A stretch of 64,000 nt of DNA from Limnomonas spitsbergensis. Lineage: Eukaryota; Chlorophyta; Chlorophyceae; Chlamydomonadales. The position numbers and the translations under genes were made by a program. This document shows positions 20,701 to 54,446 of this stretch, in pieces. Within the stretch, counting starts at the first letter, position 1, and each line of letters begins with the position of its first letter. The notes under the pieces were generated by a model. It was not told where the DNA came from, made no database searches, and saw only the letters and a program-made list of their open reading frames with translations. Where the stretch lies: contig JAYJMM010000111.1 in assembly GCA_037349105.1 (NCBI GenBank), forward strand, positions 2,642,001 to 2,706,000, read 5' to 3'.

Positions 20701-23700
20701 ATGCTTCGGCTGCGCTCCTCTGTGTCCATGTCCTCACGCGGTAGCCTGCAGCAGGGCCTGCAGCCATCCGTTGTAGGAGTCGCAAACCCACATAGAGCTG
20801 TCACCACACCATGTTCAGCCTCGACCTACGCCCCTTCCCCCTCGTCCACCCCCTCGTCACCTGCTTCTCCAGTGCTAGGGAGAGGTAGGCGCTTCAAGGA
20901 CCGGCACATCGCCTCGGCCTCGCGTCCGCCTCTCAGCGGCAACACCTGTCGATTTGCCTGTCAGCCTTCTCGTCCATCTCAAAACGCGGCTCCACAACCA
21001 TCGCCCCTTATACGACGCCTCTCGGCCTGCCGGCCAGTCAATCAGATCCAATCAACATCGCCCTCCCCGTCGCATCCAGCGACTCGGCGGGTTCTGGTCG
21101 GAGCTGCCGCCGGCAGCCTACCTTTCCCCTCCGATGACTCGGAAGGGACCACAAGCGGCAGCGACGGAGCAGTCTCAGGCTCTGCAGCCGCCTTGGATGT
21201 CAAAGAAGCTTACAGGCACGACTCGAAAAAGTAGGTTGTTGCATGGGACTGATGGGCGAGTTGGCAGGGTGCGCAGGACCATGCTCCCATGTATGATGCA
21301 GCGTCGTGTCATGCACCCATGCTTTGCAGCCCCATGACGAGAGTGTATTAAGAGCTATGCGTTGTCAAATAAGGGTTGTGGCTGCATGGGATCACTGAGC
21401 TTGATGCTGCCTTGGATGAGCATGCATGCAGTGGAAGTAGCTGACGAACACGCAGTCGTAATATGTGCGCGCTTCAGCCACAATTCAGCTACATCACGGC
21501 TTTCGGCAAGGAGGGGCCTCGAGTAGCAAGCCCTGCTGCTGCTTGGGCATTTCAGGTTCCATATTTCAGGTTCTCCCATCGACACATTCTTATTTTCTGC
21601 TACTGCTGCTGCTGAATTCATTGTTTCAGATTTTTCTGCTGCTGACCTACTTGACATTTGTTGATGCTGCTGCTGCTCCTGCTGCTCCTGATGATTTTGT
21701 GTCATTCCCTGCTGCTGCCCGCCATGTTGGTATTTGTTGCTGTTGCTGTTGCTGCTGTTGCTGCTCGCCAAAATGTTCTTGTTGTTGCTGCTGCTGCTGT
21801 TGCTTCCTTAATTTCATCTGCTGCTCCCCCCCCACCGCCATCAGGTTGTTCGCGCTGGCTGGACCTCTCATGTTGCAAAACGTCTTCGGGTGCGTAAGAC
21901 CTGGCGGGGGTACTGGAGACATGGCCCTAGTTCTGAGTTTAGGGATAAGATCAAATATCGGATCAATATATAATATAATTAGAGCGGTGGTGGTGGTGGT
22001 GGTGGTGGTGGTGGGCTCAGAGCGGTGGTGGTGGTGGGCTTAGATTTGGTCCTCATCGGCCCAGTAGTATCTGCCAAACAGCTTGTCTAAAGTGGCCGGG
22101 TAGAAGTGTAAGGCCTGTCGTGTTGTTGGTGAAAGGATGAGGGGTTGTTCCTGCGAGTAACATTTATATAATATACAGACCTGTTGCTGCCTGTCCTCCG
22201 CCCTCGGCAGGTACTTGTTCCTTCGATCGTTTTCGAATATTCAACCCTGTCACTGCCTTTCCTTCCCTGTCGGCAGGTACTTGTCCCCTCGATCGTTTTC
22301 GAATATTAAAAGATGTCGCTGCCTCTCCTCCCCTGCTGGCAGGTACTTTTTCCCTCGATCGTTTTTCGAATATTCAAACCTGTCGCTGCTTGTCCTCCCC
22401 TGTTGGCAGGTACCTGCTCTCCATAGTTTGCACAGTGGCGATTGGGAGGCTCGGCGCGCCTGAGCTAGCCGCGAGTGCTCTCGCAAACTCAATTTACGTC
22501 GTGACGGGGCTGTCCATGGTGCTGGGGCTTTCAACGGCAATGGAGACTCTGTGCGGACAGGTGTGAAATTGTGTGGACACGTGTGGATCCCTCCTGGAAC
22601 CTCCTTCTTTCCCTCCCAGCTCCTGATGTCTTGGACTCTCCCTTCCCACTCTCCCCCCGCGCTAATGCAGCCTTTGGCCCTCCCTCCTAGCCTTCAACCC
22701 TCCCCTCCTGGCTCCCCGCCTTCCGCCCCTGGATCGTTCTCCCCCCACCTCTTGCTGAGGTCCCTCCTCCCCTCCCCCCTCCCCCACTCTCCCCTGTGCA
22801 AGCGTATGGCGCTCGTGACTACAAGGCCCTGGGGGCCATACTGCAGCAGGCGGTGTTGGTGTGCTGGACTGCTTGCATCCCTACCTGTGACCCTCCCCTG
22901 CCCCACTCCCCCCCTGTGCAGGCATATGGCGCTCGTGACTACAAGGCCCTGGGGGCCGTACTGCAGCGGGCGGTGTTGGTGTGCTGGACTGCTTGCATCC
23001 CTGTGGGCATTCTCTGGGGCAAGAGCACGGACCTCATGGTGGCGTTTGGACAGGACCCAACCATTGCTGCAATGGCAGGCGGGTGAGACAAAGGGGTGGG
23101 GCCAAGCGGTGAGGTGGACCAATCGGGGTGAGGCGAAGGGCGAGGGGAAGGGGTGAGGTGGATCAATTGGAGGTGAATGTCATGGTGGCGTTCGGGCAGG
23201 ATTCAACCATTGCTGCAATGGCAGGCGGGTGAGACAAAGGGGTGAGGCCAAGCGATGAGGTGGGCCAATCGGGGTGAGGCAAAGGGTGAAAGGGGTGAGG
23301 TGGATCAATCTGGGTGAGAGGAAGGGGTGAGGCTCCTTTTCTTCACCCTGCGCGCTTTGTTTCTCCGCGCGGTTAACGCCCCATACACTTCCCGAAAGGG
23401 AGCTAGCCCGCGCGGCCAACTTCCCATATAATTCCGAGAGGAAGCTATAGCCCACGCTAGTTTTTGAAGGGCCTCAGCGTCAACAGCGGCATACCTTCAA
23501 AGTCCCCCTCTCCGCTCCCTTGCTTGTTAACAAAATGTGCATGCTCATAATTGGTTTGTGGAATCCAGGAGTGGCCCCCCTTATTCATGACTGCCCCCCC
23601 TCCCAATGCTTGCAGCTACCTAGTGCTCTGCATACCTTGCCTCTTCCTCAACATCGTTCAAGACGTGAGTGTGGCTGTGGCCTGCCTGGGCTCAGGAGTT

Positions 23701-26700
23701 GGAGGAGGGGGGGAGAGGGGGCTCTCAGGAGGTGGAGGGGGGGAGAGGGCACTCAGGAGGTGGAGGGGGGGAGAGGGCACTCAGGAGGTGGAGGGGGGAG
23801 AGGGCACTCAGGAGGTGGAGGGGGGGAGAGGGCACTCAGGAGGTGGAGGGGGGAGAGGGCACTCAGGAGGTGGAGGGGGGGAGAGGGGGCACTCAGGAGG
23901 TGGAGGGGGGGAGAGGGCACTCAGGAGGTGGAGGGGGGAGAGGGCACTCAGGAGGGGGAGGGGGAGATGGTGGAGGGGGGGTGGGTGGAGGGGGGAAGAG
24001 GGTGAGGGGGGGGAGAGGCTGGAGGGGGGGAGAGGGTGGAAGGGGGGAGAGTATGGAGGGGGGGAGATGATGGAGGGGGGGGTGGAGGGGGGGGGGTGGA
24101 GGGGGGGAGAGGGTGGAGGGGGGGAAAGGGGGTGGAGGGGGGAAGAGGAGGTGGAGGGGGGGGAGGGCGTGGAGAGGGGGAGGGGGGGGAGGGGGAGAGG
24201 AGGTGGAGAGGGGGTGGAGAGGGGGAGAGGAGGTGGAGAGGTGGAGAGGGGGGGAGTGGGTGGAGTGGGTGGAGGGGGGATGGGGGGAGAGGGGGGTGGG
24301 GGGGAGAGGGGGGAGGGGGGGAAAGGGTGGAGGGGCGGAAAGGGTGGATGGGGGGAGAGGGTGGAGGGGGTGGAGAGGGGGAGAGGGGGTGGAGAGGAAG
24401 AGAGTGGGTGGAAAGGGGGAGATGGGGTGGAGGGGGGAGGGGGTGGAGGGGGGGAGAGGGTGGAGGGGGGGAGAGGGTGGAGGGGGGGAAAGGGTGGAGG
24501 GGGGGGGGAGGGGGGGACAGGGTGGAGGGGGGGACAGGGTGGAGGGGCGGAAAGGGTGGATGGGGGGAGAGGGTGGATGGGGGGAGAGGGTGGAGGGGGG
24601 GAGAGGGTGGAGGGGGGGAGAGGGTGGAGGGGGGGGGAGGGTGGAGGGGGGGGGGGGTGGAAGGGGGGAGAGATTTAAACAGGCGGCTGAGCATGCGCTG
24701 CTTGCACTCCTACTCGATGCATGACAGGCCAGAGTATGCACTGCCTGTGATGCTGCTCGATGTAGTTGGGGAGGGGGGGGGGTGAATAAGCGTCCCAGCA
24801 GAATTCACGCGGAGAAGATGTGCAAGATGTGCTTTCCCAAAGCCTAAACCCTCAAACCCTTGTACCGTGCAGTGCATGAAGCGGTACCTTCAGATATCTG
24901 ACCCCCAAACCCTTCCCCCCCAAACCCTTGTACCGTGCAGTGCATGAAACGGTACCTTCAGATATCTGACCCCCAAACCCTACCCTCCTAACCCTTGTAC
25001 CGTGCAGTGCATGAAGCGGTATCTTCAGATATCTGACCCCCAAACCCTTCCCCTCCTAACCCTTGTACCGTGCAGTGCATGAAGCGGTACCTTCAGATAT
25101 CTGACCCCCAAACCCTACCCTCCAAACTTTGTACTGTGCAGTGCATGAAACGGTACCTTCAGATATCTGACCCCCAAACCCTACCCTCCAAACCCTTGTA
25201 CCGTGCAGTGCATGAAGCGGTACCTTCAGATATCTGACCCCCAAACCCTACCTCCCCAAACCCTTGTACCGTGCAGTACATGAAACGGTACCTTCAGATA
25301 TCTGACCCCCAAACCCTTCCCTCCAAACTTTGTACCGTGCAGTGCATGAAACGGTACCTTCAGATATCTGACCCCCAAACCCTTCCTCCCCAAACCCTTG
25401 TACCGTGCAGTGCATGAAACGGTACCTTCAGATATCTGACCCCCAAACCTTACCCTCCTAACCCTTGTACCGTGCAGTGCATGAAACGGTACCTTCAGAT
25501 ATCTGACCCCCAAACCCTACCCTCCTAACCCTTGTACCGTGCAGTGCATGAAACGGTACCTTCAGATATCTGACCCCCAAACCCTGCCCTCCAAACCCTT
25601 GTACCGTGCAGTGCATGAAACGGTACCTTCAGATATCTGACCCCCAAACCCTACCCTCCAAACCCTTGTACCGTGCAGTGCATGAAACGGTACCTTCAGA
25701 TATCTGACCCCCAAACCCAACCCTCCTAACCCTTGTACCGTGCAGTGCATGAAACGGTACCTTCAGATATCTGACCCCCAAACCCTACCCTCCAAACCCT
25801 TGTACCGTGCAGTGCATGAAACGGTACCTTCAGATATCTGACCCCCAAACCCTTCCTCCCCAAACCCTTGTACCGTGCAGTGCATGAAACGGTACCTTCA
25901 GATATCTGACCCCCAAACCCTACCCTCCTAACCCTTGTACCGTGCAGTGCATGAAGCGGTACCTTCAGATATCTGACCCCCAAACCCTTCCTCCCCAAAC
26001 CCTTGTACCGTGCAGTGCATGAAACGGTACCTTCAGATATCTGACCCCCAAACCCTACCCTCCAAACCCTTGTACCGTGCAGTGCATGAAGCGGTACCTT
26101 CAGATATCTGACCCCCAAACCCTTCCCCCCCAAACCCTTGTACCGTGCAGTGCATGAAACGGTACCTTCAGATATCTGACCCCCAAACCCTACCCTCCTA
26201 ACCCTTGTACCGTGCAGTGCATGAAGCGGTACCTTCAGATATCTGACCCCCAAACCCTACCCTCCAAACCCTTGTACCGTGCAGTGCATGAAGCGGTACC
26301 TTCAGATATCTGACCCCCAAACCCTACCCTCCAAACCCTTGTACTGCGCAGTGCATGAAGCGGTACCTCCAGGCACAGAGCATTGTGGCCCCAGCTGTTT
26401 ACTCGGCAGTCGTGGCCACGCTGCTGGCGCCCGTGTACTTTTATACCTGCGTGTATGCGTTGGGGCTCGGGCTCAACGGTGCGGCGTATGCATTCATCCT
26501 CAGCCAGGCCACGGGCTGCGTGGGTCTCCTGGGCTACATCATTTGGTGAGCAGGTCTTCAAAAATGTCGAGGATTCAGGGTTTAAACTCTGAAATGTGAA
26601 GGACTCAGGGTGTAAGATCTGAAAATGTGAAGGTTTCAGGGGTAAAACGTTGAAAATGAGGAGGTTTCAGGGTTAAACGCTGAAATGTGAAGGTTTTAGG

Positions 26701-29700
26701 GTTAAGGAGGTTTCAGGTTTCAGGTTTCAAACGTTGAAATTAAGGAGGTTTCAGGTTTCAAACGTTGAAAATGAGGAGGTTTCAGGGTTGAAAGGCTGAA
26801 ATGTGAAGGTTTCAGGGTTGAAACGTTGAAATGTGAAGGTTTCAGGGTTCAGGCAGGTTTCAGGGTTGAAAAGCTGAAAGGCGCGCAGACAATGCCGGCC
26901 CTCTATTTTTCGAGCGTGGCACCTTCCCCCCCCCCTCATCTATTGAAGCAGCCTGCTGCGAAAGAGATGAAAAATAGTACCGGCAGTCAGCGCTCACTAT
27001 TCCCCCCAAAGACAGTCTCGCTGTTACGATGTCCAGAAGCCGTTGCCCCCAAAGACAGTCTCGCTGTTACGATGTCCAGAAGCCGTTGCCCCCAAAGACA
27101 TTCTCGCTGTCACGATGTCCAGAAGCCGTTGCAGAGGCAGAAAATAAACCGCCAGTTTTTATTATTCCCGCACGACTGGATGGATAAATATTGTCTAAAA
27201 ATTGTGTAAACGCTCAGCCCTGGCGTAAGAACTCCTCTCATTATGTAAAGAATAAATACTGTTCACTGCATGCCCTCAGCAAGTAGGTTGTAGCTGAAGC
27301 AATCTAAATCAAAAGGGTTGGGTTGTAGCTGAAGTGTAGCCTAAGTGTATCGGGTTGTAGCTGAAGTGTAGCCTAAGTGTATCGGGTTGTAGCTGAAGTG
27401 TAGCCTAAGTGTATCGGGTTGTAGCTGAAGTGAATCTGAAGTGCATCGGGCTGTAGCTGAAGTGTAGCTGAAGCAACCTATATCAACCGTTGCCACATGC
27501 AGTGCAAGCACACAAAGAAGAATGCGGGGACCCCCCAGGCATTATGGGGCGGCTTCAGCCCGACTGCTGCATTCAGCTACTGGGGTTTTAGCTGAAGTGT
27601 AGCTGAAGCACCCTAAATCAAATTGCGGTTGCTGCATGCGGTGCAGGCACACGAAGAATAATGCGGGGACCCCTAAGGCCACATGGGGCGGCTTCAACCT
27701 GACCGCTGCGTCCAGCAACTGGGGGGAGTACCTCAAGTACGGCATCCCGGCCATGCTCATGATTAGCTTGGAGTGGTGGTGAGTCGTTGCTAGCTCTGTG
27801 GCGTTGACGGGGGGCTGGCTTTTGTGTCTAGGGGGGGGGGGGTCGGATCAGACAACTGATGGAACAAACGTTTTGAATTCAGCAGCTTGTGTGTCCCTGG
27901 TACACTCTTTTTAAATTCAGCAGCTTTTGAATTCAAGTGCTTGTGTGTCCCTGATACACTCTTTTTGAATTCAACAGCTTTTAAATTCAGCAGCCGTGGC
28001 GGATCCTGCTTGGCGCTTAAGAGAATCATCGGGATCCTGCCGATGCCTTCCGGCCAATGCCCCCCTGCCGATGCACCCCTGCCGATGCACCCCTGCCGAT
28101 GCACCCCTGCCGATGCACCCCTGCCGATGCACCCCTGCCGATGCACCCCTGCCGATGCACCCCTGCCGATGCACCCCTGCCGATGCACCCCTGCCGATGC
28201 ACCCCTGCCGATGCACCCCTGCCGATGCACCCCTGCCGATGCACCCCTGCCGATGCACCCCTGCCGATGCACCCCTGCCGATGCACCCCTGCCGATGCAC
28301 CCCTGCCGATGCACCCCTGCCGATGCCCCCCTGCCGATGCACCCCTGCCGATGCACCCCTGCCGATGCCCCCCTGCCGATGCACCCCTGCCGATGCACCC
28401 CTGCCGATGCACCCCTGCCGATGCACCCCTGCCGATGCCCCCCTGCCGATGCAACCCTGCCGATGCACCCCTGCCGATGCACCCCTGCCGATGCACCCCT
28501 GCCGATGCACCCCTGCCGATGCACCCCTGCCGATGCACCCCTGCCGATGCACCCCTGCCGATGCACCCCTGCCGATGCACCCCTGCCGATGCACCCCTGC
28601 CGATGCCCCCCTGCCGATGCAACCCTGCCGATGCACCCCTGCCGATGCACCCCTGCCGATGCACCCCTGCCGATGCACCCCTGCCGATGCACCCCTGCCG
28701 ATGCCCCCCTGCCGATGCCCCCCTGCCGATGCCCCCCTGCCATTGCCCCCCTGCCGATGCCCCCTTACCAATGCCCCCCTGCCTATGTAAACCCTGCCGA
28801 TGCCCCCCTACCGATGCCTCCCTGCCGATGCCCCCCTGCCGATGCCCCCTTACCGATGCCCCCCTGCTGATGCCCCCTTGCCGATGCCCCCCTGCCGATA
28901 CCCCCCTGCAGATGCCCCCTTACCAATGCCCCCCTGCTGATGCCCCCTTGCCGATGCCCCCCTGCCGATACCCCCCTGCCGATGCCACCCTGCCGATGCC
29001 CCCGTGCCGTTGCCCCCCTGCCGATGCCCCCCTGCCGATGCCCCCCTGCCGTTGCCCCCTTGCCGATGCCCCCCTGCCGATGCCCCCCTGCCATTGCCCC
29101 CCTGCCGATGCCCCCTTACCAATGCCCCCCTGCCTATGTAAACCCTGCCGATGCCCCCCTACCGATGCCTCCCTGCCGATGCCCCCCTGCCGATGCCCCC
29201 TTACCGATGCCCCCCTGCTGATGCCCCCTTGCCGATGCCCCCCTGCCGATACCCCCCTGCAGATGCCCCCTTACCAATGCCCCCCTGCTGATGCCCCCTT
29301 GCCGATGCCCCCCTGCCGATACCCCCCTGCCGATGCCACCCTGCCGATGCCCCCGTGCCGTTGCCCCCCTGCCGATGCCCCCCTGCCGATGCCCCCCTGC
29401 CGTTGCCCCCTTGCCGATGCCCCCCCGCTGATGCCCCCCTGCCATTGCCCCCCTGCCGATGCCCCCTTACCAATGCCCCCCTGCCTATGTAAACCCTGCC
29501 GATGCCCCCCTACCGATGCCTCCCTGCCGATGCCCCCCTGCCGATGCCCCCTTACCGATGCCCCCCTGCTGATGCCCCCTTGCCGATGCCCCCCTGCCAA
29601 TACCCCCCTGCAGATGCCCCCTTACCAATTCCCCCCTGCTGATGCCCCCTTGCCGATGCCCCCCTGCCGATACCCCCCTGCCGATGCCACCCTGCCGATG

Positions 29701-32700
29701 CCCCCCCTGCCGTTGCCCCCCTGCCGATGCCCCCCCTGCCGATGCCCCCCTGCCGATGCCCCCCTGCCGTTGCCCCCTTGCCGATGCCCCCCTGCCGATG
29801 CCCCCCAGTGTCGCCCCCTTACGGATGCCCCCCTGCCGATGCCCCCTTACCGATGCACCCTGCCGATGCCCCCTTACCGATGCCCCCCTGCCTATGCAAC
29901 CCCTGCCGATGCCCCCTTGCCGATGCCCCCCTGCCGATGCCCCCATTGCTGCCCTTGCAGGGTGTTCGAAATCGCGGTTTTGATGAACGGATGGCTGCCC
30001 AACGCGGCGGCCGCACTCAGCGTCGGAGGAATAATCATCACCCTCAACACATGGTGAGCACGGTGTTCTAGTGGTTACTAACTAACTAATTAACTAATCA
30101 ATAGCTGTTACAACATTGGGAACCCAAGGGTAAATTGAGCAAAGCCCAGGTTCGGGTATGTGGGAAGGAAAGAGATGAAATCATTTCGGGTGGGGAAAGT
30201 TCGGATGCCTGCGGCGAGCTCTTGGCCAGAGAGCTGACTACCACTGTCGACCAACATTGAACTTCATGAAAGGATAGATGTAATAGATGGTGTACACGTA
30301 CCCGCCGACCCCTGGGAGGGCCGGAACATGTAAAACGGCACAATATCACTATATTAGTAATCAACTCTCAGCGTCAGTGCCTGTGCTTGTTTCAACGTGC
30401 TTCAGCTACGTTTCAGCTACCGTAGTCAAGGACGTGTTTCGTTGTTTTCGAACTTCGTTATTGCTTAAAAGGCGCTGTTTTGGCGCTGTTTTGGCGCTGT
30501 TTTTGGCGCTGTTTTTTGTTTTTTTTTATTCGTTGCCCTCTTATATGAAAAATCCCAGTCAAAAACATTCTCACAGTTGATTTCGTTGCTCCCTGAACAA
30601 CGATCGAAACAACAAAATGCGTCCGTGACGACGGTACCTCCCTCACTGAAGTAGCTGAAGCGGTAGAGGCCCATAGCGGGCTTGTGCAACAGGACCCACT
30701 GCCCAGGCTACCGGCCCTGGGCACATAAAGGTTTGGTCCCCATTGGCCCAGTGGTAGGTACCCCCCCCTCTCACAGCCCCCCCCCCCCCCCCCTTGTACC
30801 CCCCTCTCACACACACACACACACCTCACACACATCTCCCCCTGCCCCCCCCCCCCCCCACATCCCTCACAGGTGCTACATGGTCCCCATGGGCCTAGGT
30901 TCCGCCATCAACACTTGTGTGGGGAATGCGTTGGGCGCCGGTGACGGCCAGGCCGCGCGCCGGTTTGCCATCGTGGGGCTGCTCTGCGGGCTGGTGGTGG
31001 AAGGCATCATGGTGTACGGAGTTGCAACCTTCGGGGGACACCTGGTGCGCGCTAAGGTTTAGGGTCTCGGGGGGTTTGAACGCATTCGTGTTTGACTTGA
31101 TATGAGTCCTGGTGATTGCTAGGGTTTGGGGTCGGGTTGTATTTTGTGTACGACCAACTGTTATATCTGGTGTGTGCTAGGGTGGACATTTATGTACCAC
31201 ATGCAGTTACTATCTGGTGTGTGCTAGGGTTAGGGATTCTGGATTGCAACACATTGTTTTGCGTCCAACTGTTACCAAGAGGGTGCAAGGGTGAAGGGTC
31301 CAGGGTCCAAACGCAATGTTGCATGACCCGCTGTTACCTGGTTTGCGTTAGGGTTAGGGTTTAGGGTTAAAACGCATCTGTGTACGACCCACGTTTACCC
31401 GTGGCTTGATAAGGTCAGGGTTCAGGTTTAAAACACATTTGCAGGGTTCAGGGTTCATACACATGTACGTACGACCTACACGTTGCGCCGGATCTGGAAG
31501 GTCGATGTCGGATATCTATTTTGTTCACAGTAACATTTATTTGCGGGATTCCGTGAGGATACCAGGCGCCTGCTCCTCGCCATGCAGGCATGCACCCTAG
31601 TGTTTTTTTTAGAGGGTGGTATACCACTATCAGCTACAGCTCAGCTACACTGTGCCTTCCAGCCACAAGCCCCTGGTGCGGCCTTCCCTGCTGCTTGGGC
31701 CACCAGCCGGAGGCCAGTCCAGGTTTTTTGGTGTGAATCGGCCCAGGGGTGGCCGCGTGGCGGCCCAGGAAAGGTGGTTCGGTACCCACTAAAATAAACA
31801 CTGACGCACCCCTGCCTCCTCCCTGGGTTGTGCTCAAGGCGGAAAAACCCTTAACCCTGAACCCTAAACCCTAAGCTAAGTCTCATGGCATGGTGTGTTG
31901 CTTGAAAATGATGCATGGGAAGGCTTGGCCGCGTCTGGTTTGTTTGATTAAAACACACTGCCACCAATGTCTATTTTTTCGCCTCTAAACCTTTTGTGAG
32001 ACAAAACCTGTTGTCCTCAGACGTTTCTTCTCACGCCCCCCCCCCCCCCTACCCCGTTGCCTCATCCCGATTTCTGCCCGCGCCCCCCCCCTTCCCATCA
32101 TCCCCCCTCCCACCACATCCCCCTTCGCGCCTCCCCCCCTCCTACCTCATCCCCCCTCCTCACGTTGTCACCCTGCTCTTGCCTTGGGATTCCTGAATGA
32201 TTGTCCTACCACAGGCCCCCCCCGAATATATCCCCATTATCCTCCTGAATCCTCGTCCTTATAGGCCCCCCTCCCCTCTCCCTTCCAGAACTCTCGACCT
32301 ATGATAAGGGGCCTGTCACTAAGGGGGTCGGACGAGTCCTCCCAAACATAGGGTTTTCCGGCCGCGGGACGATGCCTTTCTCCCCCGAAAGTTCCACAGG
32401 AAGAAAATAACTTTCCTTCCGTATTAAAAAATTGAAGTCCTGGACGCCAGTAAACTTTTCACGGGGAAAGACCCCATCCCAACGGTCCACTGCGGTTGTC
32501 GGTGGACTCGTCCGACCCCCCTCCTGCCAGGCCCCTTCCTATGACCCCCCCCTGAACCCATCACCCCTCTCCCTCCTGCCAGGCCCGTTCCTATGACCCC
32601 CCCCTGAATCCATCCCCCCTCTCCCTCCTGCCAGGCCTCTTCCTATGACCCCCCCCTGTACCCATCCCCCCTCTCCCTCCTGCCAGGCCCCTTCCTATGA

Positions 32701-37813: not shown

Positions 37814-37973
37814 AAACCTCTCCATGTAATCAGCACCGGCTAGAATCCCAGGATACTAGCATGCGAGAGCATGTAAGTTAGTACCTTACGCTGCAGTCAA
37901 GCCAAGCACCACGAAAGTGGAGGCAGCCAAAGCAAGTGGCAGCGAGCCCCATTTAGATCACAAGTCATCCCAG

Positions 37974-40662: not shown

Positions 40663-40707
40663 TGATAAGTGCATGACATGTTTCCTTGGGGCGCGGTCAT
40701 GCTTTCT

Positions 40708-42204: not shown

Positions 42205-42800
42205 GTCCACCCCCCTCCCGCGTGGGTGTACGCGTGGGGTACACCATTGGGTGAACACGCGTGGGTGTCGCCACGGTGGGCGGACCCGCGTGGTGTAACC
42301 CAGATGTGTGACCCCGCATGGGTGACCGCGACGATGGAACCCCGCGTGGGCAGACTCACGCGCACCCCCGCGTGGGTATACCCAAGGGGTACACCATTGG
42401 GAGAACACGCGTGGGTGTCGCCACGGTGGGCGGACCCGCGTGGTGTAACCCAGATGTGTGACCCCACATGGGTGACCGCGACGATGACACCCCGCGTGGG
42501 CATACCCACGCGCACCCCCGCGTGGGTATACCCAAGGGGTACACCATTGGGTGAACACGCGTGGGTGTCGCCACGGTGGGCGGACCCGCGTGGTGTAACC
42601 CAGATGTGTGACCCCGCATGGGTGATCGCGACGATGGGACTCCGCGTGGGTAGACCCACGCGCACCCCCGCGTGGGTGTACGCGTGGGGTACACCACTGG
42701 GTGAACACGCGTGGGTGTCGCCACGGTGGGCGGACCCGCGTGGTGTAACCCAGATGTGTGACCCCGCATGGGTGATCGCGGTGATCGCGGAAGGAGTGCC
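42205..42800. repeat. 150-bp tandem repeat, four units
   Basis: Each unit contains ACACGCGTGGGTGTCGCCAC, CGTGGTGTAACCCAGATG and several internal inverted GTGGGTATACCC-type motifs. The unit length is a multiple of three, so both strands keep long open frames rich in Trp, Pro and His. I treat these as non-coding. Confidence 0.9.
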
Positions 42801-44004: not shown

Positions 44005-47000
44005 CTACTTGGCGCCCGCCAACAGCCCCCTGGCATCGGCCAGAGCCGCCATGGTGGACACGTTCTTCCCCTTCGGATACTGCGAAAAGCCGTTTGCGGC
44101 AAGGAAGCCTACCACGCCATCAACTGCAGTGTACAACCTGTACAGCAACAGGGATGGGTGGGGGGGGGGAGTCAGTTAATGCGGCTGATAAGACAGAGTG
44201 AAAGATGCTGTGAATGTAACTGTAACAAGCTGTTTGCGACAAGGAAGCCCACCACGCCATTAACTGCGATATACAACATGTCAATGACGTCACACCTCTG
44301 GGCCCTGCTCAAACAAGGCTCCGCCGCATGGGCCCCTTACCAAAGAGTTGGGAGGAAAGATGGGAAGAAACACAGAAGGGGGCAGGACAAAATAAAGGGG
44401 GGGAAAGTGGGAAATAAAGGGACAAAACAAAAGGCTGGATAACACAAAATTACAAAGGAAGTTCCAACCTCTGACAATATCTAGGCCTCAACAATATCTA
44501 CCACGATATACAACATGTACAGCACCAGGGGGGGGTAGGGGCATCTGGCCAGCCTGCCAGCCTGTCTCAAGACCCTACCCAGTTGCCTGTCTGCCCGCTA
44601 GCTGATCTGGCCAGCCTGCCAGCCTGTATAAAGATCCTGCCCAGTGAGCATGGGCCTGCCTGCCTGCTGGCTGATCTGGTCAGCCTGACTGCCGGCTTGG
44701 TCTCACCTTCGCGCGCTCTGCGACCGTGCGCTGCCCCCGCGTGCGTACTTGCTGACCCAGGCCACGCCCTCTGTCTTGATGCGCTTCACGAGAGCCACGC
44801 GGGCCAGGTCTGAAGGGGGCTGCGCACAAGAATGACAAGAGTAACAAATTTAAGTATTCAGTTGAAGTTTCAGTACTGACTCTAAACCCTGATCTGCGTC
44901 CTCACCAGAGCTAAGGGTTTAGGTGTCAGTTATCACCCTAGACCCTATGACCTGGGTTATCTCAAGGGCATAGGAAAGAGGCCTTCCACATTTCAATGAC
45001 CAGAACCCCCATGCTTACCATACCACAGGGGTCACATCAATTCTGTGCCACTATGCCGTAATGCATACATCATGCGAGTGATTCCAGTCCTTCACCTGGT
45101 AAAAGTAGCTGAATAGTAGCCTCGAAATTACGGTGACTGGGAATCCTCTACGTCGATACGCCACCGTAAGGACCGTAATCGACACAGCCCAGGTTCAGAT
45201 GTCACAACAAATCGCATGCCCTTCCCTCAATCCTCACCAGACCTAAGGCTGAAGGTGTCAGCAGTAACTCCTAGCCACGTGTCAGCAGTAACTCCAAGCC
45301 ATGTGTCAGCAGTAACTCCTAGCCACGTGTCAGCAGTAACTCCTACCCATGTGTCAGCAGTAACTCCTAGCCACGTGTGAGCAGTAACTCCTAGCCATAT
45401 GTCAGCAGTAACTCCTAGCCATGTGCCAGCAGTAACTCCTAGCCCTGTGTCAGCAGTAACTCCTAGCCCTGTGTCAGCAGTAACTCCTAGCCATGCATCA
45501 GCAGTAACTCCTAGCCATGCGTCAGCAGTAACTCCTAGCCATGTGGCAACAGTAACTCCTAGCCATATGTCAGCAGTAACTCCTAGCCCTGTGTCAGCAG
45601 TAACTCCTAGCCATGTGTCAGCAGTAACTCCTAGCCATGTGTCAGCAGTAACTCCTAGCCATGTGTCAGCAGTAACTCCTAGCCATGTGTCAGCAGTAAC
45701 TCCTAGCCATGAGTCAGCAGCAACTCCTAGCCCTGTGTCAGCAGTAACTCCTAGCCATGTGTCAGCAGTAACTCCTACCCATGTGTCAGCAGTAACTCCT
45801 ACCCATGTGTCAGCAGTAACTCCTAGCCATGTGTCAGCAGTTACTCCTAGCCCTGTGTCAGCAGTAACTCCTACCCATGTGTCAGCAGTAACTCCTAGCC
45901 ATGTGTCAGCAGTAACTCCTAGCCATGTGTCAGCAGTAACTCCTAGCCATGTGTCAGCAGTAACTCCTAGCCATGTGTCAGCAGTAACTCCTAGCCATGT
46001 GTCAGCAGTAACTCCTAGCCATGTGTCAGCAGTAACTCCTAGCCATGTGTCAGCAGTAACTCCTAGCCATGTGTCAGCAGTAACTCCTAGCCATGTGTCA
46101 GCAGTAACTCCTAGCCCTGCCATTCCGACCTCTTCAGAGGTCAGGGTTAAGGCGTGAGGTCATGGAGGTCAGGGTTTAGAGGTAAGCCAGGTCAGGGTTT
46201 AGACAAAATGTCAGGGTTCATAAATAAGGTCAGGGTTTAGACGGAAGGTCGGGGCTAAGACGAAAGGACAGGGTTAAGGGTTTAGGCATGAGCAATACGC
46301 GTCAACCCAGCCCTCAGCAACACCAGAGTGCAGTATGCCTCCAGGTCGTCAATGTGTTTCCTGTGTAACCCTAAACCCTAGGACCCGTAACAATAAACCC
46401 TCACCAGAGTGCAGTATGCCTCCAGGTCGTCAATGAGTTGCATGCTTAACCCTCAACCCTAAAATCCTTCACCCTCACCAGAGTGCAGTACGCCTCTAGG
46501 TCGTCAATGAGCTTCATGCTGGACTGCACGTACGCATCGTCCAGCACTGCCACGGGCACGCCAGAGACAGGCACTGCACAGCAACAGCACGGAGGGGAGT
46601 GCACCGTGTGAGGGGGTCAGAAGCAGTACAGAGGGGGGACACCACAGGGTGAGGGGGGTCAGAAGCAGTACAGAGGGGGAACACCCCTGGGTGAGGGGGG
46701 TTCAGCATCAGCACACAAGGGACAACAGCGGATGAGGGGGGTCAGAAGCAGTACAGAGGGTGAAACCACTGGGTGAGGGGAGTCAGAAGCAGTACAAAGG
46801 GGGGACACCACTGGGTGAGGGGGGTTCAGCTTCAGCACACAAGGGACAACAGTGGGTGAGGGGGGGTCAGCATTAGCACACAAGGGACAACAGCGGATGA
46901 GGGGGGTCAGAAGCAGTACAAAGGGGACAACGAGGGGGGCGGGGGGGGGGCAGGTTCTGAGATAAATTTGATTGATCGGCAAATCTGGGCAACCATCACC

Positions 47001-49041
47001 AGGCTGATGGGGACCGGACCTGGACCGACACACAGCCACGGTGGCCGTTCACCTAGCGCTCACCTAGCTCTGTAGCTACTTAAGGCAGCGTCTTTAGGCT
47101 GGTCAAGGTTTGGTCCCAGTGGGTCCAAAGGTCGACTTGTTGCGCTAACAGCTTGCAGCGCTCACCTAGCTTTTCCCGCTCCGAAGCTGCTCCGTAACCA
47201 GCAACCTTGAGGTCCTTGCCAACATCCTTCCTGCAGGTGTGTGGACAGTGCTATCAGGTGTCCACACATGGGATCTAGATCTGGATCTGATCCACACAAG
47301 TCAACATCCTTCTTGCTTGTGTGAGGGCAGTGCTGTCAGGTGTAATCACACAGGATCTAGATTTGAATATGATCCAGAAAAGTCAACATCCTTCCTGCAG
47401 GTGTGGTGAAAATGCGATCAGGTGTCAACACATGAGATCTAGATCTAGATCTGGTCCAGAAAGGTCAACATCCTTCCTGCAAGTTTGGGGATAATGCTAT
47501 CAGGATTTCAACACAAGGGATCTAGATCTAAATCTGATCCAGAAAAGCCAGCATCCTTCCCGTAGGTGTGAGGGCAGTACCATCAGGTGTCAACACATAG
47601 GATCTAGGTCTAGGTCTGGTTCAGAAAGGTCAGCATCCTTCCTGTAGTTGCGGGGGCAGTGCCTTCAGGTGTCAACACATGGGATCTAGATCTGGATCCA
47701 AGAAAGAGGATAACAGATCCCCGTGCCAGGACACCGTGTTCGAACCAGGATAAAAGAGCCCTGGACCAGCACACCATGTTTCACCCAGGTTAAACAGCCA
47801 TGTGCCTGGCACACTGTGTTCGACCCAGATTAGACAGCCCTGGACCAGCACACCATGTTTCACCGAGGCTAAAGAGCCCCATGCCTGGCACACTGTGTTC
47901 GAACCAGGATAAAAGAGCCCTGAACCAGCACACCATGTTTCACCCAGGTTAAACAGCCCTGTGCCTGGCACACCGTGTTCGACCCAGATTAAACAGCCCT
48001 GTGCCTGGCACACTGTGTTCGACCCAGATTAAACAGCCCTGGACCAGCACACCATGTTTCACCGAGGCTAAAGAGCCCCATGCCTGGCACACTGTGTTCG
48101 AACCAGGATAAAAGAGCCCTGAACCAGCACACCATGTTTCACCCAGGTTAAACAGCCCTGTGCCTGGCACACTGTGTTCGACCCAGATTAAACAGCCCTG
48201 TGCCTGGCACACTGTGTTCGACCCAGATTAAACAGCCCTGGACCAGCACACCATGTTTCACACAGGTTAAAAAGCCATGTGCCAGCACACTGTGTTCGAC
48301 CCAGATTAAACAGCCCTGGGGAGCATACCCACTCTATGGCCCTCCGGCGGCAGGCGTCTGCACTCTCTTCCGTATCTTTATTCACGCACAGCTGGCTCTC
48401 ATCTGTAAAGTAACGAAGGAAAGGGATGAAGGGAGGGAGGGCACAGGGGTCAGGTGACAGAGGGGGGGAGGTAGTCAACATGGACAGTGGGGGGCGGCCA
48501 CACCGGCGGGGCGATGTGCGGCACAAGCGCCGGGGAAGTCTTGCAAAGAGTGCATGAATGGAGGATCCGCGGGCGGGATATCTGGTGACATGGAAGGTCT
48601 GGCTGTGCGGTTGAGAGGGAAGTGCCGGACTAGATTTCAAGTGCCCACCACTCACCCGCACAGGCTGAAGAGTGAAGACTAGGGCAGTGCGTCTGAGGTG
48701 GTGTCAGGTGCACACCCCGCCCCAGTCTTTAATGGGCCCCTGGTCAGGTAGGTGCACTCCTGAGTGAGCTCCAGGGTACGAGGATACTCACAGGCCATGG
48801 CCGAGGGTGTCGTTGGGAGCATGGTGAGAAGGGCGATGCCGGCGAGGGCTAAGTGGCGTCGGGAGAGGTCAAGCTTTGTCTCGGAACCGGATGAGGCAGA
48901 GGCGGATGTGATCGGCGAGGTGCGAGAGGCTGGTGCCGTGACAGGTGCGGTTTTGCAGGAGGTGAAGGGCCGGGCAGAGCGCGATGAAGCCTGTGCGGAG
49001 CGCGTAGAGCCAGATCGGAGAGACTTGGAGAACGACATCAT
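44005..49041 (-). CDS. Thylakoid-lumen protein, Psb27-like (tentative family)
   Basis: Six exons on the minus strand: 49041-48792, 48402-48333, 47230-47166, 46573-46479, 44819-44707, 44137-44005. All GT-AG phases agree and the product is 241 residues. Exon 1 encodes a Ser/Thr/Arg-rich plastid transit region followed by SRRHLALAGIALLTMLP and AMA, a twin-arginine lumen-targeting signal with an A-x-A cleavage site at residue 83. The mature part (about 158 residues) is helical, with VAVLDDAYVQSSMKLIDDLE, VKRIKTEGVAWVSKYARGG and LYTAVDGVVGFLAANGFS. The WVSKYARG and following helix resemble Psb27-type photosystem II assembly factors. That naming is from memory and uncertain; another conserved lumen protein is possible. 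Introns carry echo arrays of the exon edges. It is head to head with the CFAP210-like gene. Confidence 0.75.
44222..44530 (-). repeat. Echo of the last lumen-gene exon and acceptor, split by an R1 insertion
   Basis: On the plus strand, 44222-44280 plus 44505-44530 matches the real exon start and acceptor at about 44090-44152: GCCAT(C/T)AACTGC, then TACAAC(C/A)TGTACAGCA, then a G-run. An R1 copy lies between the two parts, flanked by GATATACAACATG. Confidence 0.88.
44281..44504 (-). mobile_element. R1 retroposon copy, 224 bp, with 13-bp target duplication
   Basis: Perfect direct repeats GATATACAACATG flank it at 44268-44280 and 44505-44517. The R1 3' end is at 44281 (TCAATGACGTCACACC on the plus strand). 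The 5' limit is variable compared with other copies, as expected for 5' truncation. Confidence 0.92.
45250..46122. repeat. 24-bp tandem array, about 36 units, lumen-gene intron 4
   Basis: The unit is GTCAGCAGTAACTCCTAGCC plus ATGT, with CATGT/CCTGT variants. The unit is a multiple of three and lacks stops on either strand, so both strands carry roughly 250-300-codon frames (Val-Thr-Pro-Ser-His-Val-Ser-Ala type) that I regard as non-coding intron. Confidence 0.95.
46325..46478 (-). repeat. Donor echoes after lumen-gene exon 4
   Basis: The real exon end and donor, on the plus strand CCTCACC|AGAGTGCAGTACGCC, recur at about 46322 and 46404 with CTCCAGGTCGTCAATGAG intact. Each echo holds about 35 bases of exon plus GTGAGG. 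Confidence 0.92.
46590..46935 (-). repeat. Array before the acceptor of lumen-gene exon 4
   Basis: About eight units of 40 bp (plus strand CAGAAGCAGTACAGAGGGG and GGTGAGGGGGG). They resemble the sequence immediately upstream of the real acceptor (CAGCAACAGCACGGAGGGG, then GTGTGAGGGGG). In the sense strand the array is pyrimidine-rich. Confidence 0.85.
47040..47072 (-). repeat. Donor echoes after lumen-gene exon 3
   Basis: The real donor in sense is AAGCTAG|GTGAGCGCTG. The same GCTAGGTGAGCGCTAGGTGA motif recurs twice about 100 bp into the intron. Confidence 0.7.
47237..47700 (-). repeat. Acceptor echo array before lumen-gene exon 3
   Basis: About six units of 75-90 bp. In sense each has a CACACCTGCAGGAAGGATGT-type core, copying the real acceptor CACCTGCAG and the first 11 bases of the exon (GAAGGATGTTG). 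The spacer contains GATCTAGATC palindromes. Confidence 0.9.
47700..48320 (-). repeat. Tandem array in lumen-gene intron 2, about 45-bp units in a higher-order pattern
   Basis: GACCCAGATTAAACAGCCCT and ACCATGTTTCACC units alternate, with a larger block of about 175-245 bp repeated. The array starts within about 15 bases of the exon 2 donor. A weak match of the donor flank (CCCAGGGCTG) to the unit suggests it too may have begun at the junction. Confidence 0.85.
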
Positions 49042-49321: not shown

Positions 49322-52300
49322 ATGACCGCCCATGTATCCACAAATACCATCACCAGAGCACAGCTCGACAGAATTAAACAATCGGTGTGTTGAAAGTTCT
49401 GGCGTGCGCTAGGCTTGTGAGTCACCGCAGCCTCTCTTTTACCCGTGGGGAGTACCTCGTGCAGGTGGCCGGGGACAATGTCGATTCCATAAACGCGGAG
49501 GCGAGGCGATTGAAACAGCTGAGCGACGAGCGGGCGGCAAAATGGCCCAATACTTTAGAGGCAAGCATTACAATTGCGGCATTGCGCTGCTGTCCTCTCC
49601 TCCTAACTCGTCAACTCACCAGGCATGTTTCGTGAGTGCAGGCACAGCGGGCGAGAAAAGAGCGAGCGAGGCAAGAAAGAGATGCAGCGGCAGAAGTCGA
49701 GCGACTAGAGGTCAGGCGCATTCGTGAATGTTGCTCTGGCAAGATGTTGCGCACAATAAAATAAATCATCTTCCTCGGGACCCGCTCAGTTCGTTCCCAC
49801 ACCAGAGCCGAGCACGTCTGATCACTTACGGTCTGGCTGGTTCAAATCACAGGTCGACCGGTTGGAGTGCCAACTAAACGCGAAGCAACGTAGGCTGCAG
49901 ATAGAGCGCGCCAACAAAATCCTTTTCGACGAGACGGACCGTGTCAAAGGCTTCCACAGCACCATGCAACGGTCCGACGTTATCCAGGAGAACGACATGC
50001 TCATGGGGTACAAAAAGCAGATCTCAGTGCTGAGGAAGGCGCAGGAGTCTGCCTTCGTAGAGCAGCATCGGCAAGCTCTGGAGGTAAGGCAGATGGCAGC
50101 ATGGCGCCAGCAAGGGTTCCCGGTGCATGCATGGCCTCTGAGGGTGCTGGGAGCACGGCGCATGGCGCATGGCGCAAGGTAAACAGGAGCTCCTCGCAAG
50201 GCCGTCCACCACTCAGCTTCTACTCATGCATCGCATGGCAGTAGTTGCCATGCCAGCTGCCATGATTTTCATGGCATGCATGATGCATTGATGTACCATG
50301 CTCATATGCATGCCATGCACGCACATGAGCATGGTACAATAATGCTTCATGCATGCCATGCCATGCCATGCAATCAAGCTCGCGCCCACATCGCCAGTGA
50401 ATTAAGTATCAGTCATTCACGTATCTGAACAACAGTAATTTCTATACTGTTAACAGTTAAGCCATGCCAACAGCTTGTTTCCCCCAGGTTCGCTCTGCCT
50501 GGCCCTTTCGCAAAGGGCTGTGGGTGGTTGCGTCAACTTTGTAGCAACAACAGCTGGTCACTCGTACACGCTTTCTGGTCTTCATAATTCCTTGCCTCCA
50601 TAATTACTACCCTCCTCATTCCTGTTTCAATTAGTCCTGCATCTATGAAGCCTGCCCCACTCCCAGCTAATGCCCTGAACCCTAAATCCCCGCCCTGCTT
50701 CCAACAGCTCGCCGAGGCGGCCGAGCTCAAGAAGTTTGCCGGGGAGAAGGCGCGTGCCTTGGCACAGAAGGACGTGCAACTGCGGCAGCTGGACGGCATG
50801 CGCACGCGGATCATCTCGGAACGCATGGAGAATAAGCGCGAGGGGATGCTGCTCAAGAAGCAGGCACTGGAGGAGGAGGAGGAGATGCGGCAGAAAGATG
50901 CCACAAGGTAAGCGCAGTAGGGGGAGGGATGCAGCAGGGGAGGGGGAAGGGGGGAGGGGCAGGGGGGGTGGGGCAGAAAGACCCCACGAGGTAAGCGCAG
51001 TAGGAGGAGGGGGGGAGGGGCAAAGGGTGGGGTGGGGGGCAGGAGGGGAGGGGAAGGAACAGAGTCAGGTGGGCGCAGCTGGGGGAGGGGTGCAGCAGGG
51101 CAGGGGGAGGGGGGGCAGGGCAAAGGGGTGGGGTGGGGGGCAGGAGGGGAGGGGAAGGAACAGAGTCAGGTGGGCGCAGCAGGGGGAGGGGTGCAGCAGG
51201 GCAGGGGGAGGGGGGAGGGGCAAAGGGGTGGGGTGGGGGGCAGGAGGGGAGGGGAAGGAACAGAGTCAGGTGGGCGCAGCTGGGGGAGGGGTGCAGCAGG
51301 GCAGGGGGAGGGGGGAGGGGCAAAGGGGTGGGGTGGGGGGCAGGAGGGGAGGGGAAGGAACAGAGTCAGGTGGGCGCAGCAGGGGGAGGGGTGTAGCAGG
51401 GCAGGGGGAGGGGGGAGGGGCAAAGGGGTGGGGTGGGGGGCAGGAGGGGAGGGGAAGGAACAGAGTCAGGTGGGCGCAGCAGGGGGAGGGGTGCAGCAGG
51501 GCAGGGGGAGGGGGGGCAGGGTAGGGGGGGGGGGAGGGGTGCAGCAGGGGGGAGGGGTGCAGCAGGGTAGGGGGAGGGGGGGAGGGGCGAAGGGGTGGGG
51601 TGGGGGGCAGGGGGGGAGGGGAAGGAACAGAGTCAGGTGGGTGCAGCAGGGGGAGGGGTGCAGCAGGGTAGGGGGAGGGGTGTAGCCGGATAGGGGGAGG
51701 GGGGAGGGGTGCAGCAGGGGGGAGGGGTGCAGCAGGGTAGGGGGAGGGGGGGAGGGGCGAAGGGGTGGGGTGGGGGGCAGGGGGGGAGGGGAAGGAACAG
51801 AGTCAGGTGGGCGCAGCAGGGGGCGGGGGGGGGGTGCAGCAGGGTAGGGGGAGGGGTGTGGCAGGGTAGGGGGAGGGGGGAGGGGTGCAGCAGGGCAGGG
51901 GGAGGGGGGGAGGGGTAGGGGTGACGTTGCAGTTTCCTAAACCCTAAACCTCAACCTTAACCCCAACCTCAAGTCTTTTATTTGGCTGCTGCAGGCAGGA
52001 GAAGGATTTGCAGCTCACGAGAGACAAGACCGCGGCCAATCCAACGTTGCAGCTTCCTTAACCCTAAACCCTTAACCTAAACCCCAAACCTGAAGTCTTT
52101 GATTTGGCTGTTGCAGGCGTGAGAAGGCTATGCAGCTCACGAGAGACATGACCGCGACCAATCAGACATTGAAGGCGTTCAAGCTCAAAGACATGGAGAG
52201 AGCGCAGGAAGCAGAGGTGGCCATGGAAGGTGTGCAGGGGAAGGGGCTGATAGACAAGCCAGATAGGGGGGGAAGGAGGAGGAGGGTCGGTGGAAGGTGT

Positions 52301-54446
52301 GTAGCTTTTAGAGTCAGGTGGAGGAGCCGGAAGGGGGGAAAGGGGCGAAGAGGGGAAGCAGAGGTGGCCATGGAAGGTGCGGTGGGGAAGGATTTTGATG
52401 GACAAGCCAGAGAGAGGGGAGGAGATGGGCGAGAAGGGGGAGGGGGGGGGATGTGGAAGATGCTGAGGACATGGAGAGGGGGCAGAAAGCTGAGGTGGCC
52501 ATGGAATGTGTGAAGCGGATAGGGCTGACGGACGAGCCAGACAGGGGGGGAGAGGGATGGAGGAAGTGAGGAACGGTGCGCAGCATATGGAGTTAGACGA
52601 ACGAGATCGGCGGGGCAGGGGGGGAGGGGAAAGAGAGGAGAAGAGGGGGAAAGTGCGTGGGGGATGGGAACGGGGGGGGACAGGGGGGAGGTGGGGGGGA
52701 GAGGGAGGGAGATGTAAGGTGCAGCTTGGGAGGAAGAAATGGGGGGGGGGGGGGGACAGGAAGGAGATGGGTTTGAAGGAAGGGAGGTGAACGGTGCAGG
52801 GAGGACGGGGGACAGGGGGGGGGGGGGGGGGGCATTCTGCGGGGTGTGCGAACGCAGCATTGGACATCGGGCATTCAACTTCAAATTCAAATGCATGCTG
52901 GAAGCTGCGACTCTTCACATTTTCGTCGTTTTGTGTGAGCAAGAAAAGGTTGCATCGTTCATGAATCATGAGGGCAGGAGTGCGCCGCTCTGCATGTCGT
53001 TTGGGGACAACTGTCTGTCACCCGAAACCCTGAACCCTTACCCTAAATCCTGACCCTACAGCCTGAACCTTGGTGTGTGTCGAATTCCCGGTGTTTGTAT
53101 GTCACATGAATTCCCAATGCGGTGCATATTCTCAATGCGGTGCATATTCCCAATGCGGTGCATATTCCCAATGCGGTGCATATTCCAGCACAGTACAGCA
53201 CAATGCAGTGCTGAGCAACACAGTATGATGTACACCAGAGTGAAGTACAAAACAGTGCAGCCTATACCAAGAAGAAGAAGGCGGAGATTATCCGCAAGCT
53301 ACCACCATGTTCTTGAACCCACTTTCCGTACCGTCCCTTCCGAACACAGTCTATGCCAAGAGTTGAGCCCCCTCAATTACATATCGGTAATAAACGCAAA
53401 CCAATGAACCAATGAACCTTACTGCCGCTCCCTTCCATGCGCAGCCTACGCCAAGAAAAAGGCGGAGATGATCCATGAACGTGAGCTGCGCGAGGCCGAA
53501 AAACGCGCCAAGAAGGACGCTGAGCGTGAGCGCGTCGCCGACATGATCGAGCGCAACTACAACGCGTGGATGTCCAAGGAGAAGGCGCGACTGGACCGCG
53601 ACGTCGCGGCGAGCGACGCGGCCAGCGCCGCGGACGATGCCGCGCGGCGGCAGCGCGTGAAGGACAAGGCGGCGGCGATGCACGCGTTCAATGCGGCGCA
53701 GCTGCGGGCAAAGGTGGAGAACAAGGCGCGGACGAAGGCGGAGGAGGCTCAGTATACCGAGGAGTGGGCGCAACGTCTCAAGGAACTGCAGCAGGAGGTA
53801 AGCCGCTGTGTTATTTTCAGAATGTCAATGACATGACACCTCTTGGCCCTGCTCAAAAAGGCTCGGCCGCGTGGGCGTCCAACTGTCCCGTTGGAAGAAA
53901 AGAAACTGAAGGTAAGAGGGAAAGAAGGACAAGAACACTAAGGAGAAGGAAATACCCCCCCCCAAAAGAAAAAGGCAGCCCGAAGTATCTTTGCCCCTCT
54001 CAAGCCTATAACACAAGAAGGCAAAGGAAAGCAATACATTTTCAGCATGCATGCACCGGAGTGACTCAAGGGAACACAGTCGTCCGTGAATTTCGAAAAC
54101 AGCAAAACAAAGATTTTTACAAAATGTACAATTTTCACGTTGTTGTCGGCCTGCTTACATTGTGCCCCCGTAGGAGGCTGATGAAGCCCAAGCGACGGTG
54201 CAGCGCAACAAGCAGGTCCAGTCATTCCAGCTTCGCCAGGCGGAGATCAAGGCGCGACGCAAGGTTGCAGCCAAGATCGAGGAGATGCAGGATGCGGCTC
54301 AAATCCAGCTGACCGTGCGCGAGCAGGAGGACGTGTTTCGGCAGTACGCCAACGAGTGGGTGCAGGAGTACCGTCGACAGGGCAAGTCAACGGTGCCGAT
54401 GGAGCTCGGCCTGAATCGCAAGGAGAAGGTCGACACTATGCAATGA
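49322..54446 (+). CDS. CFAP210: CFAP210/CCDC173-like flagellar microtubule inner protein
   Basis: Eight exons: 49322-49384, 49465-49560, 49642-49710, 49853-50083, 50708-50907, 52117-52229, 53445-53797, 54174-54446. Phases agree and the product is 465 residues. Intron 2 (49561-49641) has a GC donor (GCAAGC). The exon 2 acceptor could instead be at 49452, adding four residues. The protein is an almost continuous Glu/Arg/Lys-rich coiled coil of the trichohyalin-plectin homology type. N-terminal TITRAQLDRIKQS, AAKWPNTLEAQRARKER and especially FDETDRVKGFHS (101-112) fit my recollection of CFAP210 (CCDC173), a protein inside axonemal doublet microtubules. CFAP45 and CFAP53 are related alternatives. 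Four junctions have echoes in the introns, and intron 7 holds an R1 insertion. Confidence 0.8.
50494..50551. repeat. Two-hairpin dispersed sequence, copy 1 (CFAP210 intron 4)
   Basis: Nearly identical to 63229-63286 over 58 bases. It contains the stem GCCCTTT-CGC-AAAGGGC and then GTTGC...GCAAC. Confidence 0.75.
50908..51930 (+). repeat. Donor echo and G-rich array after CFAP210 exon 5
   Basis: The real junction GCCACAAG|GTAAGCGCAG is echoed at 50991 as CCCACGAG|GTAAGCGCAG with GGCAGAAAGA before it. About nine further units of 80-115 bp follow, with AGGTGGGCGCAGCAGGGGGA replacing AGGTAAGCGCAGTAGGGGGA. The sense strand is very G-rich. Confidence 0.9.
51937..52060 (+). repeat. Partial pseudo-exon: echo of CFAP210 exon 6 and acceptor
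   Basis: GGCTGCTGCAG followed by about 43 bases (GAGAAGGATTTGCAGCTCAC, then GACCGCGGCCAATCCAAC) copies the acceptor and first half of exon 6 at 52117. It has no donor, and the frame ends at TAA shortly after. Confidence 0.9.
52340..52560 (+). repeat. Two donor echoes after CFAP210 exon 6
   Basis: The real exon end GCAGAGGTGGCCATGGAAG|GT recurs with donors at 52377 (GTGCGG) and 52508 (GTGTGA, after TGGAAT), each followed by the same GGACAAGCCAGA-type intron start. Confidence 0.92.
53255..53300 (+). repeat. Echo of CFAP210 exon 7 acceptor and start
   Basis: GTGCAG|CCTATACCAAGAAG, then AAGGCGGAGATTATCC, matches the real GCGCAG|CCTACGCCAAGAAA, then AAGGCGGAGATGATCC at 53445. A shorter third copy (TCTATGCCAAGAG) lies at about 53348. 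Confidence 0.9.
53825..54037 (-). mobile_element. R1 retroposon copy in CFAP210 intron 7, 213 bp
   Basis: Flanks ATTTTCAGAATG (53813-53824) and ATTTTCAGCATG (54038-54049) form a 12-bp target duplication with one mismatch. The insertion starts 27 bases after the exon 7 donor, and the intron remains a proper GT-AG intron. Confidence 0.9.

Follow-up and report, generated by a model that had tools for sequence, protein, structure and literature searches.

A first-pass annotation of a 64,000-nucleotide stretch of the genome of the green alga Limnomonas spitsbergensis (the window, below) noticed that splice junctions of three unrelated genes recur, exon edge and splice signal together, in the adjacent intron. 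Such copies, called echoes here, raise the question of whether duplication is drawn to splice junctions in this alga, or whether ordinary tandem repeats, wherever they arise in introns, happen to catch an exon-intron border.

Gene models

Four genes with clear homology were found in the window (GC 53.9%). They contain 22 introns and 44 splice junctions in total: 40 junctions in three echo-bearing genes, and four in an LHCII gene that served for comparison.

20701-35198, + strand: MATE transporter gene, 11 exons and 10 introns of 361-2687 bp, open frame, Pfam MatE E=9.6e-56
44005-49041, - strand: gene for Psb27, a thylakoid lumen photosystem II protein, 5 exons and 4 introns, open frame, Pfam match
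49465-54446, + strand: CFAP210 gene, 7 exons found and 6 introns, match to Chlamydomonas FAP210
2508-4311, - strand: LHCII gene, 3 exons, Pfam Chloroa_b-bind E=4.1e-51

Exon edges were set by reading frames, GT/GC-AG borders and the openness of the joined exons; the splice sites treated as used are those implied by the open frames, and the joined exons of every model were open when the outermost splice sites were used. Psb27 is the gene that had been called a lumen protein. Its first four exons matched Pfam PSII_Pbs27 (E=3.2e-10), and the fifth was placed by reading the sequence. A preliminary exon join of CFAP210 matched Chlamydomonas FAP210 (6u42) with E=1.2e-101; the first coding exon and 5' end of this gene were not found. 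In the model that keeps its frame, CFAP210 intron 1 (81 bp, 49560-49642) has a GC donor, with the exon ending in GAG and the intron beginning with GCAAGC.

Raw reading frames were scanned with Pfam at 5-20 kb on both strands, at 20-55 kb on the + strand minus one frame of 35-40 kb, and at 35.3-44.7 kb on the - strand. The scan of 5-20 kb gave no Pfam match on either strand. Some unassigned stretches scored like true exons in a codon-bias scan (for example 13561-14124). Exon-like stretches of this kind without homology were left out of the junction set, and the remaining 37.7 kb of the window may hold unrecognised genes.

Copies of splice junctions in the adjacent introns

An echo was scored when self-alignment gave a same-strand copy of a junction, exon edge and splice signal together, in the adjacent intron. 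The alignment had to reach 40 bits, to extend 10 or more bases to either side of the junction and to have its partner wholly within the intron; alignments below the bit limit were discarded. Echoes were found at 12 of the 44 junctions of the four genes. Both border types were affected (5 donors and 7 acceptors), and the echoes included 11-89 exon bases at 72-99% identity. A second method, in which each junction was aligned in register, gave echoes at 13/44 junctions. It added the MATE intron 9 acceptor (one exon base) and the Psb27 intron 4 acceptor, which adjoins an interspersed repeat, and it missed the Psb27 intron 2 acceptor, the least identical of the 12 (72%). The two methods united gave 14/44 junctions, or 14/40 within MATE, CFAP210 and Psb27. 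The echoes reported by the first-pass annotation were thereby confirmed, and their number, given as about 17 in the three genes, came down to 12, or to 14 by the two methods. The sites are as follows.

22170-22413, + strand: 66-bp array of 3.7 copies (TRF) at the MATE exon 3 acceptor (junction 22409/22410), three acceptor echoes
22776-23002, + strand: duplication of about 120 bp at the MATE exon 4 acceptor (junction 22921/22922), 81 exon bases
23034-23309, + strand: 146-bp duplication at the MATE exon 4 donor (junction 23082/23083), 49 exon bases, GTGAGA retained in the echo
24848-26372, + strand: 67-bp array of 22.7 copies in MATE intron 5, at the exon 6 acceptor (junction 26351/26352), up to 21 exon bases
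27454-27724, + strand: 139-bp duplication at the MATE exon 7 acceptor (junction 27646/27647), 78 exon bases
32519-32791, + strand: 52-bp array of 5.2 copies with the MATE exon 10 acceptor (junction 32790/32791) at its end, one exon base in common
32857-34537, + strand: 72-bp array of 23.3 copies at the MATE exon 10 donor (junction 32870/32871), starting 14 bases inside exon 10
50869-51133, + strand: duplication at the CFAP210 exon 4 donor (junction 50907/50908), 39 exon bases
51924-52163, + strand: 122-bp duplication at the CFAP210 exon 5 acceptor (junction 52116/52117), 58 exon bases
52190-52596, + strand: CFAP210 exon 5 donor edge (junction 52229/52230) and two intronic copies, 40 exon bases
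47220-47698, - strand: 82-bp array at the Psb27 exon 2 acceptor (junction 47231/47230), 11-13 exon bases, AG in 3/5 intronic copies
46485-46946, - strand: diverged repeat at the Psb27 exon 3 acceptor (junction 46574/46573), 89 exon bases, 72% identity, found by the first method alone
46302-46520, - strand: Psb27 exon 3 donor edge (junction 46479/46478) and two intronic copies, 42 exon bases
44079-44281, - strand: Psb27 exon 5 start (junction 44138/44137) and a copy in intron 4, AG lost

MATE intron 10, with its 72-bp unit, and MATE intron 5, with its 67-bp unit, stand out most. Each holds 22-23 copies, which upholds the view that border duplications lengthen introns. In CFAP210 intron 4, a G-rich array reaching to 51895 carries seven more donor copies (of eight), with just 2-4 exon bases each; the G-rich arrays of this intron were retained in the counts. 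At the Psb27 exon 3 donor, one intronic copy was detected by the in-register method and both by reading the sequence. The echo repeats were local and on the same strand; their TRF periods ran from 52 to 247 bp, in two to 23 copies. The position of the border within the repeat unit varied, and was compatible with a uniform distribution (KS p=0.23, 12 values).

Markov-shuffled versions of the 22 introns gave no repeat pairs at 40 bits in one set and one at 45 bits in another. Junction probes matched their own intron at 11/44 junctions. Over 20 shuffles among the four genes, the same probes never matched another gene's introns; they had no match on the inverted strand either (0/44), and exon-centre probes had none in the adjacent introns (0/12). 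Since own-intron matches stand against none in the strand, shuffle and exon-centre controls, the echoes are not chance similarity. Among the four genes compared, an introner-like spread of the echoes was rejected on the same absence of matches in other genes' introns. The copies had also been described as lying on the same strand and on the correct side, following a donor and preceding an acceptor. The strand was confirmed by the lack of inverted matches; the side rule carries no information, because no other side is available to a copy that lies in the adjacent intron.

None of the four LHCII junctions had an echo, and the LHCII introns contained no tandem repeats (0% TRF coverage). The absence that the first-pass annotation had set against the probably high expression of this gene was correct, but it is uninformative on expression, because 0/4 is unremarkable at a rate of 12/40 (0.7^4 = 0.24) and the introns are without tandem repeats.

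Position of repeats relative to splice junctions

If splice junctions were preferred sites of tandem duplication, for example with transcription, R-loops or nicks at exon-intron borders leading to slippage or break repair, introns would grow from their ends. One point in favour of such a hot spot is that introns were richer in tandem repeats than the sequence beyond the gene models: TRF covered 55% of intron bases, 7% of exons and 18% of the sequence outside the four models. Direct repeats in the self-alignment spanned about 50% of intron positions.

We compared the echo count with a base-level expectation, in which the repeat coverage of each intron sets the probability that a repeat spans a given position there. 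The 12/44 echoed junctions stood against 13.7 expected (P(>=12)=0.86), a comparison in which observed and expected are not fully independent, as junction duplications raise interior coverage. The outcome changed little when the limit was lowered to 30 bits (12/44 against 14.0 expected). A 30-bit run without the last Psb27 exon gave 12/42 against 13.5, and two shuffled sets yielded 130 repeat pairs.

Mean repeat coverage by distance into the intron was 0.34 at 150-300 bases, 0.29 at 100-150 and 0.33 at 60-100; nearer the junction it was 0.38 at 40-60 (the highest value), 0.37 at 20-40 and 0.33 at 0-20. It then fell smoothly into the exon (0.28, 0.20, 0.13, 0.05, 0.00). This profile had no peak of repeat coverage at junctions, and the smooth fall is as expected of randomly placed segments of about 100 bases from which wholly exonic ones have been removed by selection. 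Among TRF arrays, which are blind to the annotation, 8/32 straddled a junction; the expected numbers were 13.5, 10.1 and 7.3 for base introns of 229, 343 and 520 bp. The TRF count scores the MATE exon 3 array as non-straddling, its TRF end being four bases into the exon.

Grouping of the alignments into repeat families, with families wholly in exons dropped, gave a count that speaks for a hot spot: 12/23 families straddled a junction, against 5.4 or 7.2 expected from placement in present or contracted introns (P 0.0014 or 0.02). This count hinges on the assumed ancestral intron length and on the merging of nested arrays. With a fixed base intron, the expected number was 17.5 at 150 bp, 14.6 at 200, 13.3 at 229, 9.7 at 343, 7.1 at 500 (P 0.02) and 3.8 at 1000, and between 200 and 343 bp the excess of the observed 12 was not significant. 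In a growth simulation, in which introns lengthen as repeats accrue and for which the input was the 23 family units with rough copy numbers, the expected number was 10.0 for base introns of 150 bp, 8.3 for 229 bp (P 0.08), 6.7 for 343 bp (P 0.014), 5.6 for 450 bp (P 0.003) and 4.6 for 600 bp (P <0.001); the values from 229 to 600 bp favour the hot spot. PMC8226300 gives median intron lengths of 198-343 bp for Chlamydomonas relatives. The median of the eight repeat-free introns in the window was 520 bp, which favours the low expectations. The eight introns that lack a repeat family, the two of LHCII among them, had no echo, which is partly so by construction. A further point for the hot spot is that the interior coverage of MATE introns 3 and 4 was just 0.02 and 0.13, yet each has one junction duplication.

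By merging nested interior arrays, the family count may undercount interior events, and the TRF count would do so less. We also considered whether slow decay of exon copies could inflate the junction counts. This was rejected, as the exon and intron parts of the repeat pairs were equally diverged (10.3%, 33/319, and 9.8%, 82/839).

Taken together, the evidence for a junction preference is weak. A junction-specific process was rejected as the main reading because the base-level and TRF tests showed no excess and coverage did not peak at the border; it was kept as a rival because of the family count, and we consider it unlikely. The argument of the first-pass annotation that exon edges recur too regularly for random minisatellites was not supported by the base-level, coverage and TRF comparisons; counter to that outcome stands the family excess for longer assumed introns.

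Fate of the copied splice signals

The first-pass annotation had offered selection for redundant splice signals as one option: spare copies of a splice site would be kept, so that junction duplications persist. The figure that speaks for this is that GT or AG was kept in 44/70 of all in-register copies. The losses, however, match drift. Among the best echo copies, GT or AG was gone at the matching place in 3/13, against 2.6 expected from the divergence of the units. All three are copies of acceptors (MATE intron 3, MATE intron 6 and Psb27 intron 4); in the two MATE echoes (of the exon 4 and exon 7 acceptors) the sequence reads CAAG, with AG one base further on. Of the 26 losses among all in-register copies, 21 are a single variant, GC in place of GT, which is spread through the MATE intron 10 array and occurs in 21 of its 22 intronic copies. 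An inner site, if used, would moreover add intron sequence to the message. Differences in the exon part numbered 13/143, 14/139 and 23/141 at the three codon positions, which is what drift in the copy of a constrained sequence would produce. Because the echo signals have decayed in step with the unit around them, selection for redundant splice sites was rejected, and we regard it as very improbable.

The human gene 6-16 (IFI6) reportedly has a border minisatellite that repeats a donor, like MATE intron 10, and its extra donors are said, in the title of a report, to be used. The extra donors of MATE intron 10 are mostly without GT.

Origin of the echoes

We concluded that the echoes are, with a probability of about 0.8, 'mirages', in which the segment copied by an ordinary local tandem duplication or minisatellite array included an exon-intron border by chance. 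Tandem copies would arise throughout introns, made by slippage, by unequal exchange or by break repair. Where one caught a border it would be tolerated, as splicing at the outermost donor or acceptor could still keep the reading frame and would leave the inner copy as intron, while duplications lying wholly in exons, or altering the message, would be removed by selection. The inner splice signals would subsequently drift. Introns would lengthen in this way, with decoy sites as a by-product and no special process at splice junctions. A border-duplicating process had been put forward as the explanation of the very long introns and the decoy sites; duplications that span borders and have lengthened introns were indeed found in the three genes, and the excess specific to junctions was absent from the base-level and TRF tests.

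Errors of assembly could in principle create such repeats. Long arrays are difficult to assemble, and an amphioxus mirage was misassembled in a genome draft, as PMC3087553 records. In the window, the copies differ mutually and carry array-specific variants, such as GC for GT in MATE intron 10; several echoes consist of two copies that have diverged by about 7-18%, and the frames are intact over all exon joins. We find an assembly origin scarcely credible.

Other repeats in the window

An interspersed repeat at 53820-54030 recurs at about 20 other places on both strands, in longer and in short partial copies (for example 4997-5210, 278-460 on the minus strand, 8745-8871 on the minus strand, 44278-44333 and 17757-17816); BLAST gave 22 rows, the query itself included. 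One copy begins about 26 bases past the CFAP210 intron 6 donor, and another lies in Psb27 intron 4, directly against the echo. The repeat is perhaps a short mobile element or an introner-like element.

At 40150-41110, fragments of the form HSDV..ANFLV, which we take to be kinase-like, were read on the + strand near 40540 and on the - strand near 40880. Their position on opposite strands suggests an inverted duplication or a mobile element. A 15-bp tandem array at 38494-38671 encodes a five-residue repeat on the + strand; its match to Pentapeptide_4 reached 32.4 bits, short of the curated cut-off of 38, and the array is probably a minisatellite. A 150-bp tandem array at 42217-42780 has several open frames, one of which, on the - strand near 42746, matched the GETHR pentapeptide just over the cut-off (26.2 against 22.4 bits); the array may be a gene or a minisatellite.

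Relation to known systems

The pattern, for which the first-pass annotation knew of no named description, has one. It is described as 'mirages' in amphioxus, where PMC3087553 and PMC3902484 place it in Adh3, the globins BflGb6 and BflGb9, troponin C and PGBD5; PMC3902484 cites troponin C and adds PGBD5. According to the same papers, mirages are, like the algal echoes, minisatellite-like tandem duplications over exon-intron borders, at donors or acceptors, with intronic inner copies. Their units are 10-160 bp long, unit identity in BflGb6 is 81-100%, and AG or GT occurs in many, not all, copies. Length instability is reported for mirages as well. In the alga, tandem copies of exon edge and splice signal were found in the adjacent intron at 12/44 junctions (14/44 with the second method), at donor and acceptor borders (5 and 7), with GT or AG in many but not all copies (44/70).

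The algal case differs in its host, a green alga, in which three neighbouring genes have echoes at 12-14/40 of their junctions and a single array holds as many as 23 copies. For amphioxus, RT-PCR of a globin mirage and data on Adh3 suggest that regular splicing is undisturbed (PMC3087553); for the alga, one genomic sequence shows open frames over the outermost sites. Our literature searches, which did not pair mirages with algae and lay mostly outside subscription journals, found no title on mirages in a green alga. The algal echoes are a dense example of an already known kind, of which the taxon and the density within the window would be new. That junctions in this alga are duplication hot spots and its introns grow largely from their ends, far more commonly than in the few amphioxus mirage genes, is doubtful.

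Three other systems resemble the echoes in part. In a potato RdRp gene (PMC4974935), a tandem duplication over an intron-exon border likewise inherited its splice signals from the parent junction; there a new intron was created, whereas in the alga existing introns seem to have been lengthened. In human segmental-duplication genes (PMC2812944), internal tandem repeats at borders likewise change the structure of introns and can be a source of splice sites, in paralogues and often with alternative transcripts; the algal repeats lie in single genes. Direct repeats near intron splice sites (PMC11782384) lie, like the echoes, at or near exon-intron borders; they are short (4-30 bp) and common to the 5' and 3' borders of one intron, whereas in the alga one border is copied inside the intron. 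Intronic minisatellites of C. elegans (PMC4039745) were considered and set aside, as they had no bearing on the question.

Meaning for intron evolution and gene prediction

Gene prediction calls for caution at such loci, where the inner copies are close false exon edges. If the density found here (12-14/40 junctions in three genes) held genome-wide, the alga would offer abundant natural material for studying how introns lengthen, how the spliceosome passes over many decoy sites that are nearly identical, and how often border duplications become new introns or alternative exons.
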